From Bolinopsis microptera (taxonomy: Eukaryota; Ctenophora; Tentaculata; Lobata; Bolinopsidae), in the NCBI RefSeq assembly GCF_026151205.1, contig NC_087076.1, positions 13,563,675-13,627,674 of the forward strand: a DNA stretch of 64,000 bases, read 5' to 3'. Position numbers and translations under genes: made by a program. Of the stretch, positions 6,001-51,892 are shown one piece after another; the stretch's first letter is position 1; each line of letters begins with the position of its first letter. The notes below the pieces were generated by a model. The model worked only from the letters and a program-made list of their open reading frames with translations. It had not been told where the DNA came from and did no database searches.

Positions 6001-9000
6001 AGAAGATCTGGGTAATTATCTGGAGACGTATCTTTAGGGAGTTCATTTAGTTTTCCTTCCCTGGAAAACGGTCGGGTTTTTTTGTAAATTGGTTACTGAA
6101 TAGTAAGCGCTTGATTTAACGATCAAAAGTTAGGTTTTAGAGACAACATTTGTTTTCTATGCTAGTAGTAAGAGTATCCGAACAAACCTTAATATCTGAA
6201 CAAGTTTATCCTGTACTTCATCAAAATTTCGATCATCATCTTTCTCGTTATTTCCTTGATCACCGTCTACCTGATCGCTTTCATCTCTGTCCTTGCTCCT
6301 GTCATCCCGATCATGTACGTCATCATGTACGTCATCATGTACGTCATTAAGGTTGATCTCAACCGTCCTGTCACCATTATTCTCACCTCCGTTTCCCATG
6401 TTCGAGGGCCCTGCCTCCTGGGAGTTGTGGAACCGACTAGGCTTACTGTTCACGGGGTCTTGTGTGCAAAAGTTTACAAAATCGTCTTTAGAATTTTCGG
6501 GTGATTTTTCTTCATCTGATGACGACGAATTACTTTCTTCCGTGTCTCTAGCTGACTCGCTCGAGGTAATGCTTATTGCCCTCTTCCCTCGCTTTGACAT
6601 TGACGCCAATTTTTTTAGAGCCTTTGCAACCTTTGGGGATTGTCGAGATGGCCTTTTTCTACTAGATCGCCTAAGCGTTATATTCTTTTCCTCCTCATCA
6701 TCATCGTGTTCACTTGGTGTGTTTGATTCTTTTCCATCCACAATAGTGTCTGAATCATCATCCGAAGATAAAATCTGTTTACGCTTGGGGTCAGTCTTCC
6801 TTACTCGCTCTCCACCGCTGTCAGGGTCGGACTCGTTGCTGCTGCTAGTGCTTGCGATGAAATTGTCGTCTAAAAAATCGTCAGTTCTACAGGTGTATCC
6901 ACTTTCTCGGTAGTACGAACTAGTATTTCTGGGGTGAACATGTTTCATTTAAACAGCGAAAAATGTTAAATTGCAATTGTAAAAATTAAATAGATTTTTC
7001 AATCATGCCATTATATAAATCTGTTCATGAAAATTAAATGTAAGACTTAAGATCAAACTTACCGTGCGTACGGATTTTTGGTCATTTTAGGTGTTTCGTC
7101 TTGGAGGTATATCGGCATTCGTTTCGTTGGAGTATCTGAATGTTATATGCGTTATTTATTAAAATATTGAGATAAGCTATAATTTTGAATTTATTTGTCC
7201 AGATTCCTACTCACTCCCACCCTGTCGATAAAACTTTTGGAATCAGCACTTCCGCTCACTTCACTGAATTTGATAACCTTATTTAAAACGGACTTTGCTG
7301 TCACGTGACCTCCCAGCTGCGCTATGATTGGACGCTAGATAAACTTCAGTTCTTCTGCTGATATCTTCCTAAAACAAAACAAACCTCCATGTAACTGCAT
7401 ACCCTGCATAACATTGATTAAATCATTCAAAATTATACTGATATTTCTCTCCGTGAGCCCAGAACAGTTCTTGAACTTCAAAATAACACCTCCCAATTCT
7501 TAAACCAAGATACTTTTCTGTGTGTACACTCCGCTTTTTGTTTTCTCGTTTAAGCGTTTCCGGGCTGAAAAACACCCAGGAAAATGTTACTCCCTTATCT
7601 TCTCCTCTTAGTCATAGTATCGTATCCTGCTACTGTAGAGGCAAATAAGCAAAGAGCATTAAGATTTGGTCAAAGCACTGCCGACTATATAGAGTGGTCT
7701 CCGAACATGGCCCCTTTTACAAGGTAGTTCTCTGTCTGTACTTGGCTAAAGAAGAGACATCAGTCATCATATCCAATAGTTGTGAACTACCATCCTCCAG
7801 GTTACGAGATACAGTTTGGTGATAACGGTTATTATAACTACGTGGTAGGTTCTAATCTTGATGTACGGAGCAAATACAACGTGCCTGATGGAGAATGGTT
7901 TCACGTCTGCTGGTTGTGGAGTGCCTCTAGTTACACCACTACAGTCTACCTGAACGGAGAGATTATAGGATCTACAACTACTAATCAGAGGGAGCTGAGA
8001 ACAGGAGGAACAATGTGTCTTGGTAACTGGGCTGTGCGTAAACATGCTCAACATACCTTCGGTGGTGACTTGTTCAAATTTAGTATATACAGTAGAGTTT
8101 TAACAGACACTGAAATCCGAAACATGGCCTCTGATATATGTTCTAACGAGGAGGAGAGTCTAAACTCAATAAGAAGTCTAAGGTGGGAAAGTATAATATT
8201 ACTGGAGAGAAGTGGCTCTCTGACGGAGACAACAACTGGTTGTCCTTCTTCTGAAGAGATTGAAGCTGGAAGGCGGGCTACACTGCTGAGACTCATTGAT
8301 GAAAGACTGAAGACATTTGAGATTAGGTTACAGATTACCGAGCAGGAGTTGGCAAGGACAAAGACTAATTTAGAACAATCTGATGCTAATTTAGAAAATG
8401 TGTCCGCAAAGCTAAAAAACTCTGAGCAAGATCTAGCAGAGACGAAGTCTACCCTGAAGGTATTTGAAGAGAAGTTAGGAAGTTTTAACTTCTCCCTCAC
8501 AAGCACACAAAACGAGGTGTCCAACACCCAACTTGAGCTTACAGCGACAAAAACTAATCTCACACAGCAATTGGAAAGTGTCTCTGCGTCCCTGAACCAT
8601 ACCCAAGAGGAGCTGGAAGCAGCTACAAAGAACAAAGTCCGCAGCAAGTGGGACGTGCTTTTCTCGGACAGGTTTTTCAACAAGAAACTTACTAGGGAGA
8701 TGTCTCCAGAGCTCAAATCAACATGGAATATTCTAGGTAATTTCTCTCTTTTTAGGTTGTCTATTGATCTTATGAAATTTTTCGTTTTCGAAGAATAGAT
8801 ATTTTTTGTATAGATTGCGTAATTTCTTAAAATCATGGCATAAATTTGATAACTCCGGTTGTCTAGTAAAAACGATATTATTTTAACAGATTTCCCTTTC
8901 AGACCTGTTTTTAGGATCGAACATAACAGAACCGTTTATCGAACACTTAAAGCATTACCACGAACCCAGAGAATTGAGCTGTACAAACCCCGGAAACTGA

Positions 9001-12000
9001 TATTATTCTTTAAGTGCCTCAGTAATAACATTTAGGGAATCTGAACTTATTTTATCATACAAAATATGTCTAATGGACCTTTCGTTATTAAATTTGTAAT
9101 CAAACTTGGATATGAATCCTTTTATTAGAATCCTAATCGCAGTGACGGATTATTCACTTTTTGTTTTTTGTGTATATGTGCTTATGTATTCTATAGCTTT
9201 GGCGAAACAGTAATATTCAAATATGTCAACCTCATAACTATATAATTATATTTATAATTTTTTTGTCAAACACAATTGTTTGATTATTTTCTTCTGACTT
9301 CTACTCAATTGAGACTGTTTTGAGAGATATTGAAATATGTTTAGGAGGGTAAAATTCCAAAATCCCCCCCCCCCCCCCCCCCGCACTGCGCGCCAAGCTG
9401 CACCCACCCAAAGATTTTGAGCTGGAGCCATGCCTGTCTGTCCAGCAAACTGTACAAACTGAGATGAAAAAACGTGGTGCAGCATCATGAAGCACTGTGG
9501 AACAACTACCAGTGCTCCGTAGATTGACAGTATAAAAGTATAAAGACAGCTGTGAAAACCGTAGTTGAACCTCACCGAGATTTGGGAATCATCGGGGTGT
9601 TATCCTAAAGTGGTGGCAGCAAGTTTGATCGGGATTCAAAAACTTGCAGATAGTGGTAAACCGAGACCGATAAAAGTGACATTGGCTTGTATGGAATCAG
9701 TCAAAATGGTTTTTGCTCGAGCAAGAAACCTGAAGAAATCTAAATGTGCAGCGTACCATACGTGGTTCATCACACCTGACAGAAATAGGGAGGAGAAAGC
9801 AGCTCATCAGAAACTTGTTGTAAAAATGAAGGAAATGATTACTGCTCAGCCAACAAAGTATCATTATATTAGAGACGGCAAGATTTTCAATGTAGATAAG
9901 TTCAAGGTGTAACATACAATGTTTTTGATATCCAATATCCATATTACTTAGATTTAAGTGTACTATAAGGCTCTTATCTATGGCTGTTGCGTGTATTTGT
10001 TGATTTCGGCCGATAACGAGGAACTTTTAATTGTGAGTTATAAAACTGCAACCGTGATTGTAACTCAGGTATGCGATGACTTGTAGAGCACACATCGCTG
10101 AATAGCAATCGCAATGCAGGTCTCACACAGGCCAGGTTTATCTATAGGGCTCTTTTCTGAGGAAAAACTACCAGTTGTTTATGTATTGTGTTGTGTGCTA
10201 AGGTACATCGTTTCATTTTTGGATATATTGGTATTCCTAAGCAAAGGGAATTTATATTTATCTAATTTTATGTAATTATTATATATGTAATACTTCAATA
10301 GTATTGACCCAGTTTCTACTCACTCCCACCCTGTCGATAAAACTTTTGTAATCAGCATTTCCGCTCACTTCATTGAATTTGTTAACCTTATTAAAAACGG
10401 ACTTTGCTGCCACGTGACCTCCCAGCTGCGCTATGATTGGATGCTAGATGGACTTCAGTTCCTCTGATAATCTCTTTCTAAAACAAATCAAATTTCCATG
10501 TAACTGCATAACATTAAATCATTCAAAATTATACTGATAATTCTCTCCATGAGCCGCTCACTTCATTGAATTTGTTAACCTTATTAAAAACGGACTTTGC
10601 TGTCACGTGACCTCCCAGCTGCGCTATGTTTGGATGCTAGATGGACTTCAGTTCCTCTGATAATCTCTTCCTAAAACAAATCAAATTTCCATGTAACTAT
10701 ATAACATTAGATCATTCAAAATTATACTGATAATTCTGTCCATGGGCCAAGAACAGTTCTTGAAGTTCAAAATAACATCTCCTGACCTTCCAATTCTTAA
10801 ACCAAGATACCTTTCTGTGTGTACACTCCGCTTTTTGTTTTTTGTTGTCGAAGTGTTTCTGGTCTACAAAATACCCTACAAAACACCCAGGAAAATGTTA
10901 CTACCTTTAGCTCTACTCTTAGTCATAGGATCGTTTCCTGCTACTGTAGAGGCAAATAAGCACAGAGCATTAAGATTTGGTCAAAGCAGGGCCGACTATA
11001 TAGAGTGGTCTCCGAACATGGCCCCTTTTAAAAGGCAGTTCTCTGTCTGTACGTGGCTAAAGAAGAGACATCAGTCTTCAGCTCCAATGGTTGTGAACTA
11101 CAATCCTTACGAGTACGGGATGATATTAGGTGATAACGGTTATTATAACCTAGTGGTAGGTTTCAAAATCTACGAGGCACAAGTAGTCTCTATTCTACTC
11201 TACAACTGCAACTCCTGGGCTGCACCACTAGCTTCGTTGAATGAACTTGATATTGCTCATCGCAAACACCTCCGAAGAATCCTCAACATCAGATGGCCTA
11301 CTGGGGTTATTTCTAATGAGGCACTCTATGCTCGTTGTTATGTCACTCCCTTGTCTGTGAGAGTCTCTAAGTTTCGATGGAGAATGTTAGGACATATCTT
11401 AAGAGGACAGGAATACTCACCAGCATACACCTCTATGTTATTTGCTATAAATTCTGATATTTTTATGGAAGGGAGACGGGGTAGACCATGTTTAAACTTA
11501 TTAGATGTTATTAGAAAAGACTTGACTAGTAGAAATCTTGATATTAGACTTAAGAATTTGACTGATTTCGAAGACCTTAGATTTTTAGCTTTAGATAGGG
11601 AGGAGTGGAAGAAGTTAGAAGATGGTTGATGTTTTTGTTTTCTTTTTTATGCGTTTTGATATCTATAAGGTGCCTAGGATGCTCTTTTAAAGAGATATTT
11701 CGTACTTTGAAAGATTTACTACTACTAGTGGTAGGTTCTGATTTTTTTCTGAGCGAGTACAACGTGCCTGATGGAGAATGGTTTCACGTCTGCTGGTTGT
11801 GGAGTGCATCTAGTTACACCACTACAGTCTACCTAAACGGAGAGATTATAGGATCTACAGCTACTCATCAGAGGGAGCTGAGAACAGGAGGAACAATGTG
11901 TCTTGGTAACTATGCTGCGAGTAAGGAATCTAGATACGCTTTCGGTGGTGACTTGTTCAAGTTGAACCTATACAGTAGAGTTTTAACAGACACTGAAATC

Positions 12001-15000
12001 CGAAACATGGCCTCTGATATATGTTCTAACGAGGAGGAGAATCTAAACTCGATAAGAAGTCTTAGGTGGGAAAGTATAATATTACAGGAGAGAAGTGGCT
12101 CTGTGACTGAGATAACTGGATGTTCTCCTGAAGAGATTGAAGCTGGAAGGCGGGCTGGAATGCTGAGGCTCATTAAAGAAAGACTAGAGACATTTGGGAG
12201 TAGGTTAAAGAACACCGAGCAGGAGTTGGCAAGAACAAAGACTAATTTGATACAATCTGATAAAAAGTTAAAGAATGTTACCGCATCCCTCACAGCAACT
12301 CAAGAAAAGCTAAAGAACTCTGAGCAAGAGCTAGCAGAGACTAAGTCTAATCTTAATCAACAATTAGAAAATGTTATCACCTCCCTGACAGGTACCCAGA
12401 ATAAGCTTAACGACACTGAGCAAGAGCTAGCCGAGACTAAGTCTACTCTGGATCAACGACTAAATCAAACCGAGGATAAGTTGGAGAATGTAACCACATC
12501 TCTCAAAACCACCCAAGAAAAGCTTAAGAACTCTGAGCAAGATCTAGCAGAGACAAAATCTACCCTGAAGGTATTTGAAGAGAAGTTAGGAAGTTTTAAC
12601 TTCTCCCTCGCAAGCACACAAAATGAGGTTTCCAACACCCAACTTGAGCTTACAGCGACAAAAAATAGTTTTACACAGCAATTAGAAAGTGTCACCGTGT
12701 CCCTGAACCATACCCAAGAGGAGCTGGAAGCAGCTACAAAGAACAAAGTCCGCAGCAAGTGGGACGTGCTTTTCTCGGACAGGTTTTTCAACAAGCAACT
12801 TACTAGGGAGATGTCTCAAGAACTCAAATCAGCATGGGATGTTTTAGGTAAGATTTGCTTGATCTGTTGTCTAGTGAGTAGTGTTCTTATGAAATGTATC
12901 ATTTTCGAAGAATAAATATTTTTTGTATGGATTGCGTAATAATAATATTTTGTAATGTCTTAAAACCATGGCATAAATTTTTAATATATCCTTTTTTGTC
13001 TGGTAGTAGTAGATCAAATACTGTTTTAACTTTAACATCTTTCCTTTCAGATCTGTTTTTAGGAGCAAACATAACAGAACCAGTTATCGAACACTTAAAG
13101 CAACAGCACGAGCCTAGAGTAATGGTCTGTGCGAACCCCAGAAACTGAGAATATTCTTTAAATGCTTCAGAAGTGATATTTTTAGAATCTGAACTTATCT
13201 TAATATACAAAATATGTCTAATGGACCTTTTGTTATTAAATTTTTAATCAAACTTGGATATATGATATGACTCCTTTTATCAGTATCCTAATCGCAGTGA
13301 CGGATTATTCACTTTTTGTTTTTTGTGTATCATGTGCTTATGTATTCTATAGCTTTGGCGAAACAGTAATATTCAAATATGTCAACCTCATAACTATATA
13401 ATTATAGTGTTCTTCAAAATCAAGATTATCTTTTGTGACTTTTCGTAAGTGGATCCGGTAATATTTTGTAAACGTTTTCACCAATACGTTAGTAGCATTG
13501 TCTGAAACTACCTGTGCTAATGGGCCAATAAATAAACTGCTGCTATTCTGTCTGGTAGGTCTAGTCATTCTTGGACAATGGACCTTGGACATACCTTTGG
13601 GAAGGTTTGTGCAAAGTTTCGTGAGTATCTAGAAATTTGCAGGTACCAAACCAAGAATGTCCATAAATGACTGGACTACTATAGGGCCTGGTGTGATTAA
13701 CACATAAGGTAGCCTATTAAAAATAGCAGCAGCAGCTTTGGATAGTTACGTCAATAATTGACAACTTTTAAACCGCCCATAAAACGTCAATAATCTTAAC
13801 TCAGAGTAGAATTTAAAATTCTCTTCCACGACAATTAATCTTATGGCAATTTGTGAATATTCAATGAAAGATTTACTCACTTTTCTTTCTGTCAACAATC
13901 ATCTCTTCTTCAGATTCATTACTCTCATGCTGGTCATCCTCTGACTGTTCTTTTTTGCTCTTCATATTCTCAAATTCATTATCTGCAGGCTGCACATTAT
14001 CGTTTTCAGAGGCAGTATCAATCGGCTGAACTCTGGAAGGTCTTAGCTTATCGTCGTTTGATGATTCCTCGGAGTCTTCTTCAATCCGCGGGGGTTTCTT
14101 TTTGTTCCGAAACTTTCTGGACCGTAGGTGGAAACTGAAATTTAACGTTTATTTGACAATGCAATCAACAAAATAAAGATTCAAATATGACAGACATATC
14201 CATCCTTTCCTGTTGCCTATTGATTTAGCCTGCACTAGAGCTATGCGCTAAGCGCTTGTTGTTACGAAGATTTTAAAAAACCTTTCACTTGCTAAACAGG
14301 AGGTAAGGCTATCGACAACTATTATTGACCTTTCCAATACAATTTTTAGGGTCATATACTTAGGACATCCGCCAAAATCGCAGATTTTCAGACCACCCCC
14401 TCCCCCTGTCCCGTGTCCGGGTGTGTCCGATTTTCAGAAACCACCGCTGTGTACTTGTGCGGGGGGGGGGATGCACAATCTTAGGGGGGGGGGGGGGGCC
14501 AAACCGTCGTTTGAACAACGCTACGCCACTGAAACCACCCCCTCTTCCCCTGTCGGGATTTGTCCGAAATTCCAAAACCACCCCCTCCCTATTTGCCGGA
14601 CGTCTTAAGTAGATGACCCCGTAGCAATTAACCGCAGGAATGGAAGTTTTTCAGATAAATTGGCCAAATCATGTAAAATATGTTTGTTGCAACAACGAAC
14701 TGGTGATGAGGAATAAACCCTGCGAACTGGAATATTTGTTTAAATGTAGTTGTCACCTTCGTCAATTCGCAAAGGATATATAAGATAGGGGTTCTTAAAT
14801 ACGTAGCAAGTTTATAATTGACATACGTTGCATGCCACTTTTCTCTGATATTTGTGATACGTAACATGTATCAAGTTTATAAGCTTAGCTGTATTATACG
14901 TCAGTCTAACAATTTACCGCGAATCGATGAGAGGCGCGTAATGTACGTAATTTAAAATAAATGCGTGCGGTGAGTGCTAAACTGTATACAAATTATACCC

Positions 15001-19303: not shown

Positions 19304-21664
19304 CTACGAAATTCTTAAAAGATCAACAACATGTCTCATGGTAGGTCGACCATGCGGACAGTTCCAGGGATGATCCATGTTGGCCATGTGGTCCACTATT
19401 TCCCTCATCTGTACAAAGCTTAATGCTGTGCCAATCATTACAGCTGATCGACAAGCTCTTGAAGCAAACATTCTGTGAACCTTCGATGGTCGTAAATTTT
19501 CTATGTTAAGAGTTGATTCTTCAGATAATAACCATAGTAATTCTTGAACATCCTCTTCTTCAAACAGAAGGTATTTGCTGCGTGGCACACCAGTTAAACA
19601 AACTCTCTTGCCTGGTTCTTTAGTTTCATCAACAGAAAATGTAAATCCATTTTTGTCAAAAATGTGCTCATAGGATAACAAAAGATCCTCCTGTGCTCCA
19701 TTTAGTGCCATCGATTTGGGGCAAATAAGCTTTTGATTATCAATTTTGGTTTCCCTCCTGAGCGTTTCGTATCTAAACTTTTCATCACTGGCATGCTGAT
19801 CTATAATAAAAAGATTTCCATTCAATTTTACTAAAATGAATCCCAGATTAAACTGTCCAAGTACCTCCATTTTACGGAACATTGCTTTAGTAATCTGCTG
19901 ATCAAGCTCTTTTTCAGCATCTTTGTTTGATTCTATTTGATGATTAAAGTGAACTAAATTTACGTGACTAGTTTTCTTAGCATGTTGAAACTGTGAACTT
20001 TGTTTCAAAATCAAACTGGAGTTACATTTAATTGTTACCTTCTTCCTTTTCCGAGAAACATTAGGTTCATCATATCTGTCAACCGGAGTCTTTTTTGGAG
20101 AGCTGACATTATCATAAGAGGATTTTGCTGTACTAAATTGTTTGGGTAGATGATTTTTAGCAATCCCATTAACCGGATTAGCTTCTATAATATCCATCAC
20201 AAATCCACCAGACAGGCAATTTTCAGGTGAGACAACAGAAAAAGCAAGACTTTCATTTTCTGTCTCAGTGACAGGCTCAAATATCTCCATTTTGAATCCA
20301 TCATCATTCTGACCTTCTACACAATTTTGGAGCCCATTTCCATTCGTAAGTCTACTTGGATACATGATACATGAAGAATTGGTCTCTTTACTAGTTTTAA
20401 AACAATCGATGCTGGGGTTAGGAACAATTGCTTTTGAGTGACCAGTATCAACATTAGTCAAATTGAGTTGACTAGCAAATGGTCTATTGTTGGAGAAATG
20501 TATGCCTTCATCATAAAGGGGACCTGTTTTTTCTTGTAGGCTGGGAATCAAGTCTTCCTTATGACTCAATTCGATAACAGGTAATGTTAACTGAAGCTTG
20601 GAAGTCTGTTCAAGAAATACTCCAGCATATTTCTGAAACAGATTCTCAAAATACTTTGACAGGTTGTCAATCAGTTGATTTTCATTGTCAACAAATAACT
20701 TTCGTTTGTCAGGAGTGACATTCACATCAATGTTATCTCCAGTTATATCAATCACAAGTATACAAATTGGATACTGAAATTTTTGATGCTGCTTGAATGT
20801 AGAGTTAATTGTCTTTGAGAGTTTTTCATGATCACAAGGTCTTCCATTAATAAAAAAGTACTGCTTATCAGCACTTCCACGCCCATGTTTGGGCAAAGGT
20901 TTAGATACATATCCATGAACATGGAATATACATTCACTGAAATCGATTGCAACAAGATTTTTAAAGATTGAACATCCTAGAACATCAATCACATTGTCTT
21001 TGAGAGTCGACTTGCCTTGAGTGGAGAATATTACCTGCTTGCGTTTGTTTATAATATTTAGGCAATGTATCCTAACATTTAATGAAACCATTGCATATGC
21101 TTGGAGAGCATCAATGGCTTTGTGAAAATTTTTCTTAATGTTTTTCATAAACTCTTTATGTCGAACAGGGAGTGAATGAAACAAGTTCTCAATTGTTACA
21201 GTTGTTCCTTTAGGCCTAGCTTGGTGAGTTGATTTTATGATATTTCCATCCTTCCCATACGACAAGAAAGTTCCAAGTTCACCTGTTGAAGTCAAAACAC
21301 TGAGGTTACCAAGGGCACACAACGAACTTAAAGCTTCGCCACGAAATCCGAAGGTTGAGACATCAGATATATCCTTGAAATCACGGATCTTAGAGGTATG
21401 ATGTTTAAGTGTCAGGCCAGCGAAATTCTCTTCTGATATTCCTTTTCCATCATCGGAAACCTCAATAGCTTTAGCCCCATATTCTCTAAAAGTGACATTG
21501 ATAGATTTGCCACCAGCATCGATGGAATTCTCAACTAATTCTTTTACAGCTGTTGCAAGAGTAACAATAACCTGTCCTGAGCAAATGTTGTGCACTGAAG
21601 ACTTATCAATGCACCTTACTTGTGGAGCTGTTAACATCCTGGTGATAGTCATGTTTGTCAACAT
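19304..21664 (-). CDS. PMS2: PMS2-type MutL mismatch-repair endonuclease, intronless
   Basis: Single open frame of 786 residues (human PMS2 is 862). The frame is open further upstream, but the first in-frame ATG is at 21664 (MLTNMTITRMLTAPQ); two later ATGs are also possible. The N-terminal GHKL ATPase has ELVENSIDAG (ATP/Mg), DDGKGI and GFRGEALSSL. The C-terminal nuclease has GQFNLGFI, DQHASDEKFRYE (DQHA(X)2E(X)4E metal motif, from residue 622), ACRSAVMIGTAL and CPHGRPTMRH (zinc/metal site), so latent nicking activity is expected. In other animals PMS2 pairs with MLH1 to form MutL-alpha, which nicks the new strand after MutS recognises a mismatch. Absence of introns is odd beside 23- and 11-exon neighbours. 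A polyadenylation-type AATAAA lies at 19167-19162. Confidence 0.96.
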   Translation of the reverse strand: MLTNMTITRMLTAPQVRCIDKSSVHNICSGQVIVTLATAVKELVENSIDAGGKSINVTFREYGAKAIEVSDDGKGISEENFAGLTLKHHTSKIRDFKDISDVSTFGFRGEALSSLCALGNLSVLTSTGELGTFLSYGKDGNIIKSTHQARPKGTTVTIENLFHSLPVRHKEFMKNIKKNFHKAIDALQAYAMVSLNVRIHCLNIINKRKQVIFSTQGKSTLKDNVIDVLGCSIFKNLVAIDFSECIFHVHGYVSKPLPKHGRGSADKQYFFINGRPCDHEKLSKTINSTFKQHQKFQYPICILVIDITGDNIDVNVTPDKRKLFVDNENQLIDNLSKYFENLFQKYAGVFLEQTSKLQLTLPVIELSHKEDLIPSLQEKTGPLYDEGIHFSNNRPFASQLNLTNVDTGHSKAIVPNPSIDCFKTSKETNSSCIMYPSRLTNGNGLQNCVEGQNDDGFKMEIFEPVTETENESLAFSVVSPENCLSGGFVMDIIEANPVNGIAKNHLPKQFSTAKSSYDNVSSPKKTPVDRYDEPNVSRKRKKVTIKCNSSLILKQSSQFQHAKKTSHVNLVHFNHQIESNKDAEKELDQQITKAMFRKMEVLGQFNLGFILVKLNGNLFIIDQHASDEKFRYETLRRETKIDNQKLICPKSMALNGAQEDLLLSYEHIFDKNGFTFSVDETKEPGKRVCLTGVPRSKYLLFEEEDVQELLWLLSEESTLNIENLRPSKVHRMFASRACRSAVMIGTALSFVQMREIVDHMANMDHPWNCPHGRPTMRHVVDLLRIS

Positions 21665-21731
21665 ACATTTGACTTGTTCCAGTAAAAAATATTGTGATAT
21701 AAATAAAGACAAATTCTATATAATATAAGTG

Positions 21732-49516: not shown

Positions 49517-50137
49517 TTAAAACTGCGCGTCTTAGTTGTCCAAACAAGGATTGGACACCCTACAACACAAAATTTCACAAAGATCATGCGTGCGCTTACA
49601 TTCAAACGTTTGAGTGAATAGAGAGCTTTATATTGCGGTTAGATATTTCCGAATACCATTACTAATCACTATTTCTATTTTCAAGCACCAGCCACCAGAT
49701 AATAATTTTAGGGCGCCTGGACGCCCTCAAAAGCCGCCTCTGTGTCACAATGACCCTTTATAAAAACAACCCTTCAAAAACTCAATAAATTCCCTATCTT
49801 TAATATTGGGAGAAACATTTGAAAATCACCCTTGGCCTTGTGGCTCCAAATTTAAATCTAGACTATATATATTAACCAAGTTCTTTCTCGCACCTCTTGC
49901 AGTATATTCAAATATCTAATTTTATTATTGTACTATATTGAATGGTAACTTAAATGGTTTTAAAGGCAAATTGTAACTTTCTGGGTTGATGAGATTTTCA
50001 ACGGGGTTAAAGACTTCAAGATTGTTTTAGCATACAAAATATAAGTTTCGAAATTCAATGACTTCAATCAGTCTAGTATATTTGCATAATCTAACTATGT
50101 TTTACATTTCAATTTTCAGGCAAGGTTGAATGCTAAA

Positions 50138-51892
50138 ATGCTCTCTCCTGACTACATACGGTTTGAAGAAAGTGTCGCAAGCTCACAGGCCTCCAAACCT
50201 CTGAACTCTCTTACTACAAGCATGAAATTCATGGAGGATAAAAGGAAAAAGTACTCAATTCATCTTATTTGCCTCATTGTCATTTTACAGAATGTGTCAG
50301 ATTTTAGCGTTTCAGCAAATATGGTATGGATGGCATCAATTGTTGGTAACAACAGCTGGACATGGTTGCCATGCAAGCAGGGTTCAAACAATATTGACAA
50401 TCCTGCCATATCCAGGCCCAGTACAGCAGAAGGGGCTACAGCTACGTTTAGTTACTACCTTCTAATTGCCATCTTCTCAATTATTGGTGGGTACCTGGGT
50501 GACACAAAGCTGGGTAGATACAAAACTCTGAAACTGTCCCTGGTGATTGTCATCTTAGGCACAGCACTCTATGCTAGTCTAGCAATTGTACTGCAGGCAA
50601 ACGACCGGAGTCAAGGTTTCCCGATTGAGAGTTACATGGGTGTCACTGCTTACAACACTCTAGTGTACAGTCTGCTGTTTTTCAGTATAGTGATCTGTGC
50701 TGCCGGATCAGGGATACATTGTGCCAATATAATACCATTTGGTGTGGAGCAGTTTGTTGATGTGCAGACTGAGGAGGAGGACGGGGAACAACATGGCCAG
50801 TACACTAAGATAAGCCAGGCGATACACCTATTGTATTTTGTCAGAAACTTTGGCTGCTTCTTTACTTTTGTTGCTATCTCCAGCCTTCAGGAACACAAAT
50901 GGTCCGTTGGATTCTGTATGCCTTTCATCTGCTCAGTCATTTCCGCAGCACCATTGTTCTTGGGAAAGAAGTATTTTGTTGTCAATGTACCAAGAACTAA
51001 TGCCTCCTCCTTGTTTGTAAACGTAATAAAGGAAGGCTACAAACTCTCCAGAGTCACTGGGATTGCAGTGGACTCTAATCTTCATTATTTGGACTATGCT
51101 AGACGAGATTATGGTGGTAATTATGACAGGGAGGATGTAAATGCTGTGAAACGCTTGTTAAAGCTCATCCCTAAACTGTCAATCTACATGGTGTATTTTC
51201 TTCTCTATTCCCAAATGCACACAACGTTTTATATTCAAGGCCTATTCATGAAAACCCCGCCATATTTTCCTTATGCTGGCGCAGAAGGAATCAATAACAT
51301 TACAATAATGTTGCTGATACCATTGGTAATATTCAAGGTGTACCCCTACTGGAGGAGGCACTACGGACCTTTATCGCCCATTCTAAAGTCCCAAGTGGGA
51401 TTTGCTCTAATTGCCCTGTCCATGGTGGTTGCTGGATTGCTGGAATACTTCAGAATCCTACACTCTGACCCGACCTACAACGAGGCAGCTAAAGTCCGCC
51501 TACATTTCTACTCTTTGTTGGAAATAACTGTTAACCAGTCTCTCGACTTTTACCTGAGGTTTCCTCAGTATTTCCTCATTGCGATTAGTGAGGTGTTTGT
51601 GGTTATTGTTGCGCTGAAGCTAGCTTACATTGAGGCACCCAGACAGTTTAAGAGTGTATCTATGGGAATATTATACATGTTCAACGCGCTGGGGACCCTG
51701 CTAGCAGCGGCAGTGCTGCTGCTCACCCAGTTGATAACGTATTACGCTTTTGATGGTCACGGCTGGATTTGTCAGGATCTGAATGCTGGTCATATGTATT
51801 ATTATTTCTACACTGTTTGTGTTTTGATGGTTGTTAACATGATTGTTCTTTGTTTTAAGTCAGATTCTTATGAACTTGATATATCGATTTAA
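50138..51892 (+). CDS. SLC15/PTR-family (POT) transporter-like protein lacking the ExxER motif
   Basis: 584 residues from ATG 50138; the open frame reaches a 3' splice-like site (TTTTCAG|GCAAGG at 50119-50120), so an upstream exon is possible. Family features: GGYLGDTKLGRYKTL loop, YFVRNFGCFFTFVAISSLQ, LKLIPKLSIYMVYFLLYSQM, QYFLIAISEVFVVIVALKLAY and EAPRQFKSVSMGILYMFNAL, with about 12 membrane spans. The family moves di/tripeptides (SLC15A4 also histidine) with protons, SLC15A4 in endolysosomes. Helix 1 reads VILQNVSDFSVSANM where the family has ExxER, so proton coupling may be lost. A relative begins at 55221. Length matches SLC15A4 (about 577). Confidence 0.88.
   Translation: MLSPDYIRFEESVASSQASKPLNSLTTSMKFMEDKRKKYSIHLICLIVILQNVSDFSVSANMVWMASIVGNNSWTWLPCKQGSNNIDNPAISRPSTAEGATATFSYYLLIAIFSIIGGYLGDTKLGRYKTLKLSLVIVILGTALYASLAIVLQANDRSQGFPIESYMGVTAYNTLVYSLLFFSIVICAAGSGIHCANIIPFGVEQFVDVQTEEEDGEQHGQYTKISQAIHLLYFVRNFGCFFTFVAISSLQEHKWSVGFCMPFICSVISAAPLFLGKKYFVVNVPRTNASSLFVNVIKEGYKLSRVTGIAVDSNLHYLDYARRDYGGNYDREDVNAVKRLLKLIPKLSIYMVYFLLYSQMHTTFYIQGLFMKTPPYFPYAGAEGINNITIMLLIPLVIFKVYPYWRRHYGPLSPILKSQVGFALIALSMVVAGLLEYFRILHSDPTYNEAAKVRLHFYSLLEITVNQSLDFYLRFPQYFLIAISEVFVVIVALKLAYIEAPRQFKSVSMGILYMFNALGTLLAAAVLLLTQLITYYAFDGHGWICQDLNAGHMYYYFYTVCVLMVVNMIVLCFKSDSYELDISI

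Follow-up and report, generated by a model that had tools for sequence, protein, structure and literature searches.

Two tandem copies of a pentraxin/laminin-G-like gene lie on the forward strand of the 64,000-nt stretch of the Bolinopsis microptera genome analysed here (the window), and the first coding exon of the second, copy 2, is interrupted by an insert whose unique part is 562 bp long (Table 1). When the two coding parts of copy 2 are joined across the insert, the N-terminal 230 residues score 61.1 bits for Laminin_G_3 (cut-off 27.6) and 27.4 bits for Pentaxin (cut-off 25), and we read the predicted product as having a signal-peptide-like start and a coiled coil. The fused frame of copy 2 as it stands matched no family. 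The insert is 5′ of a predicted native intron, the equivalent of which occupies 8737-8902 in copy 1, and with a GC content of 0.374 it is poorer in GC than the exons (0.424-0.426) and much richer than the native intron (0.266). Were the native intron to be retained, both copies (8737-8798; 12848-12915) would read into a hydrophobic alternative C-terminus ending in FEE, followed by a stop. Elsewhere in the window, long single-frame open reading frames encode a PMS2-like MutL protein (803 aa, 19304-21715) and a POT-family transporter (600 aa, 50090-51892).

Table 1. Features of the tandem genes, the insert and the candidate splice sites, in window coordinates.
Feature	Position	Strand	Basis or remark
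Tandem copy 1, without LINE, TAG at codon 48 (7725-7727)	7584..8736	+	Frame reading, paralogue comparison
Copy 2, 5′ coding part: signal-peptide-like start and first half of pentraxin/laminin-G-like domain	10895..11159	+	Open frame from ATG 10895; paralogues align
Left target-site duplication, CTAGTGGTAGGTT	11150..11162	+	Same letters as the right copy; paralogue L015 lacks the insert
Stronger donor GTG|GTAGGT inside left duplication	11156..11161	+	Score 8.6; frameshift with acceptor 11734
Proposed 575-bp intron, GTTTCA...GGTAG (candidate)	11160..11734	+	Donor 3.0, acceptor 2.0, joint 5.07
5′-truncated LINE: 3′ end of reverse transcriptase ORF, 3′ UTR and start of (CTA)n tail	11163..11724	+	Genome matches; longer copies extend upstream into RVT_1 ORF
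TGATG: fused-frame stop overlapping the ATG of a frame that continues into the second half of the gene	11627..11631	+	Sequence reading
Right target-site duplication, CTAGTGGTAGGTT	11725..11737	+	Identical to left copy; empty site in L015
Copy 2, 3′ coding part: rest of domain and coiled coil	11735..12847	+	Open frame
Copy 2, native 3′ intron, GTAAGA...TTTCAG, 203 bp (predicted)	12848..13050	+	Donor 9.1, acceptor 12.5

The insert is a 5′-truncated insertion of a recently active LINE, with all the expected marks: a reverse transcriptase frame in longer copies, variable 5′ truncation, a repeat tail and a target-site duplication. At least 40 matches to the 562 bp are present in the genome at 99-100% identity (window copy counted), a lower bound since 40 of 195 candidates were scored, and 38 of these 40 carry a CTA-repeat tail. 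A longer copy contains a 654-residue open frame with a reverse transcriptase domain, and RVT_1 scores 61.8 bits in longer copy L003 (cut-off 29.6); the short insert of the window itself matched no Pfam family. Eight loci were fetched, one being the window copy. Among the other seven, similarity upstream stops at different points, with the 5′ end located in four, while for the remaining three it is beyond the fetched flank or the copy served as the reference. The insertion is very young, indeed nearly new: compared with each of these seven copies, the window insert has one private base in 562, the same base each time.

The original prediction placed a 13-bp duplication containing AGGT around the LINE, and this is borne out letter for letter (13/13 bases). 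The paralogue L015 reads ...TATAACCTAGTGGTAGGTTCT..., with the same 13 bases in place and no insert, and the 13 bp are therefore a true target-site duplication; by paralogue comparison the site is without the insert in all nine other family copies. The first CTA of the right duplication is compatible with the LINE tail as well. The presence of AGGT inside the duplication is unremarkable by itself, since about 6-7% of 13-mers across the coding sequences of copies 1 and 2 contain it. Moreover, AGGT is not a preferred target of this LINE. Over the 40 scored copies the target bases are AT-rich, and AGGT occurs in the 13 bases after the tail in the window copy alone; copy L066 has AGGT at bases 13-16. 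An introner-like target preference was considered and is ruled out by this count of one in 40. Automatic duplication guesses for other LINE copies (7-12 nt where found) overlapped the tail and were excluded from the counts.

The gene that received the insert belongs to a partly decaying family. Ten copies of its 5′ part, including the two in the window, lie in tandem groups on one chromosome, and a 77-bp fragment on another chromosome also matches the 5′ part. Apart from copy 2, two of the nine (L010 and L017) keep an open frame as far as the conserved C-terminal stretch and five look broken: copy 1 (L009) by its stop at codon 48, L012 by a frameshift inside the domain, and the trio L011, L013 and L014 by a stop together with a C-terminal stretch that lies in a different frame, which a coiled-coil intron gone unrecognised may explain. 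L015 and L016 were left unclassed, the C-terminal stretch not having been found in them. Thus copy 1, which had been put forward as the uninterrupted counterpart of copy 2, is uninterrupted at the insertion site but not as a gene. Values of dN/dS between copy 2 and eight paralogues are 0.48-0.79, and the 36 pairs of the nine sequences (L012 omitted for its frameshift) have a median of 0.71 and a range of 0.48-1.1. These figures show weak constraint; as a test of copy 2 they were rejected, being silent on the period after so recent an insertion.

The consequences for the reading frame depend on whether, and where, the insert is spliced. Excision of 11160-11734, that is, of the LINE and one duplicate, restores a single open frame, just as the original prediction had it. 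A decayed frame downstream had been named as a refuting check. The frame from 11735 is open to its end, but with an insertion this recent the point carries no information. Unspliced, copy 2 reads 89 gene residues and then enters the LINE ORF in the LINE's own frame (compare L003), to end at a stop at 11627-11629 as a fusion of 244 residues. Since this stop is 1.2 kb upstream of the native intron, the transcript would, by the usual rule, be exposed to nonsense-mediated decay. The ATG that overlaps the stop begins a frame of 438 residues whose start is hydrophobic and which continues through the lectin half downstream and the coiled coil.

The proposed splice sites were scored against introns of the same genome. 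Thirty-six introns were mapped in five CCT (chaperonin) genes by a spliced alignment guided solely by GT, AG and protein similarity; one doubtful intron was dropped, and the site matrices, which rest on just these five housekeeping genes of one family, were built from 35 and scored leave-one-out. The genome's U1 RNA begins with the usual ATACTTACCTG (read by eye on the minus strand of L037). Taken singly, the donor TAG|GTTTCA and the acceptor are each within the natural range, with three of the 35 natural donors and three of the 35 natural acceptors scoring lower, and the length of 575 bp is inside the natural 106-2399. The joint score, however, falls below all 35 natural introns, the lowest of which reaches 7.3, and with the dropped intron put back, 0/36 are at or below the candidate pair. 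The donor combines T at +3 with a base other than G at +5, which is found in none of the 35 natural donors scored: G at +5 accompanies T at +3 in all nine cases (9/10 if the dropped intron is real). The eight pyrimidines from -18 to -4 of the acceptor sit within the natural 5-14. The U1 duplex energy of the stretch at 11160, -8.8 (natural introns, -1.5 to -12.6), was set aside as support for this donor, as we attribute it to the overlapping GTAGGT register. In the window, 17.4% of 3613 GT and 17.0% of 3583 AG dinucleotides score at least as high as the proposed donor and acceptor, respectively, and of the 5829 GT-AG pairs 80-800 bp apart across the insert and the coding stretch of copy 2, 345 (one being the candidate itself) equal or exceed the candidate's joint score.

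The idea under examination is that the spliceosome uses the GT at 11160 and the AG at 11734, both supplied by the duplicated AGGT, and so removes the LINE and one duplicate exactly. Its geometry is as the original prediction described: a LINE inside a coding exon, AGGT duplicated, the frame restored, and an AGGT insertion of the kind described as a route of intron gain (PMC3443670). Against it stand the joint score, the donor's bases at +3 and +5, and the stronger donor at 11156, which overlaps the proposed one from 4 nt upstream and whose pairing with 11734 (joint 10.6) would take out 579 bp and put the frame out of register. Judged on splice-site scores, use of the insert as an intron is not supported, and we consider exact removal of this kind highly unlikely; that this comb jelly LINE is on its way to being a spliceosomal intron, drawing both sites from its own duplication and spliced at least at a low level, may be called very unlikely. 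A less exact form of intronisation fares no better. In a scan of donors up to 11165 and acceptors from 11630, with frame judged on length alone, eight other frame-keeping pairs outscore 11160/11734 (best 11.2), and pairs such as 11156-11871, 11130-11827 and 11160-11827 would drop the LINE together with some codons. Each of the eight also deletes codons, however, at a cost of at least 10 from the domain, and two frame-breaking pairs, the top pairs of the area, score higher still (13.9). We give this variant the same highly unlikely standing as exact removal.

A different kind of rescue would split the gene into two overlapping frames, with the fused frame ending at TGATG and its ATG starting the 438-residue product, through termination-reinitiation or from an internal promoter. 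Stop-start coupling of the TGATG kind occurs in some LINEs, and the frame is open into the gene; but TGATG could be a chance product of the LINE 3′ end, and half of the domain would be absent from the predicted product. From the sequence, reinitiation at TGATG appears a less likely rescue route, and the split gene as a whole is extremely unlikely.

The most likely reading is an ordinary disruption of a pentraxin-like gene by a young LINE. Ordinary 5′-truncated LINE insertion mutations combine truncation, a simple-repeat tail, a target-site duplication and a disrupted frame; all of these are shared by the window insert, and nothing essential differs. A recently active LINE would have copied its 5′-truncated 3′ end into the first coding exon of copy 2, presumably by target-primed reverse transcription, duplicating 13 bp at the target in one gene of the tandem family. 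If there is no splicing at the insert, translation would pass into the LINE frame to yield the 244-residue fusion, from a transcript that is likely a target of nonsense-mediated decay; if the insert is spliced, the strongest local donor, 11156, would favour frame-breaking products. For copy 2 the most likely outcome is thus either a fused frame that stops early or splicing that breaks the frame, with probable loss of gene function. We hold it highly probable that this account as a whole is correct, namely that a recent LINE insertion disrupts copy 2 and that exact excision is rare.

Mechanisms of the proposed kind are already known, and the locus would be a further candidate. Insertion of a transposon into the protosplice site AGGT is an intron-gain model set out in a review (PMC3443670). 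Like that model, copy 2 has an insert in a coding exon with AGGT on both sides, and its exact removal leaves the coding sequence unchanged; unlike it, splicing here is a proposal, and the two site scores add up to less than those of the introns scored in this genome. By the account in PMC9860276, some introner families draw both splice sites from the insertion site, and intron-making elements are found in only two animal groups. Dispersed, near-identical elements are common to introners and to the LINE described here, whereas introner families constitute many introns and the window element belongs to a LINE whose copies are truncated at variable 5′ points, with AGGT by the tail in one of 40. 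PMC4974935 discusses the variant of the model in which AGGT is tandemly duplicated, together with the requirement for additional splice signals. Among the literature matches listed, we recognised none in which a comb jelly LINE had been intronised by way of its own duplication. For B. microptera, RNA-seq and Iso-Seq data have been described (PMC10232365). If exact splicing were true, the locus would offer a dated, single-event case of an animal intron born from a retrotransposon. At present it is a clean illustration of how a young LINE interrupts a member of a tandem family that is itself partly in decay, and it recommends caution: AGGT in a target-site duplication is insufficient alone to make an intron.

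One further observation concerns the 5′ end of the insert. Of the two LINE copies whose match begins at query base 3, one, L073, is longer, and the other, L074 (G000:C7:2509400-2511600), has its truncation point no more than about 2 nt from the 5′ end of the window copy. A shared truncation point of this sort could possibly reflect a preferred stop of reverse transcription, or microhomology.
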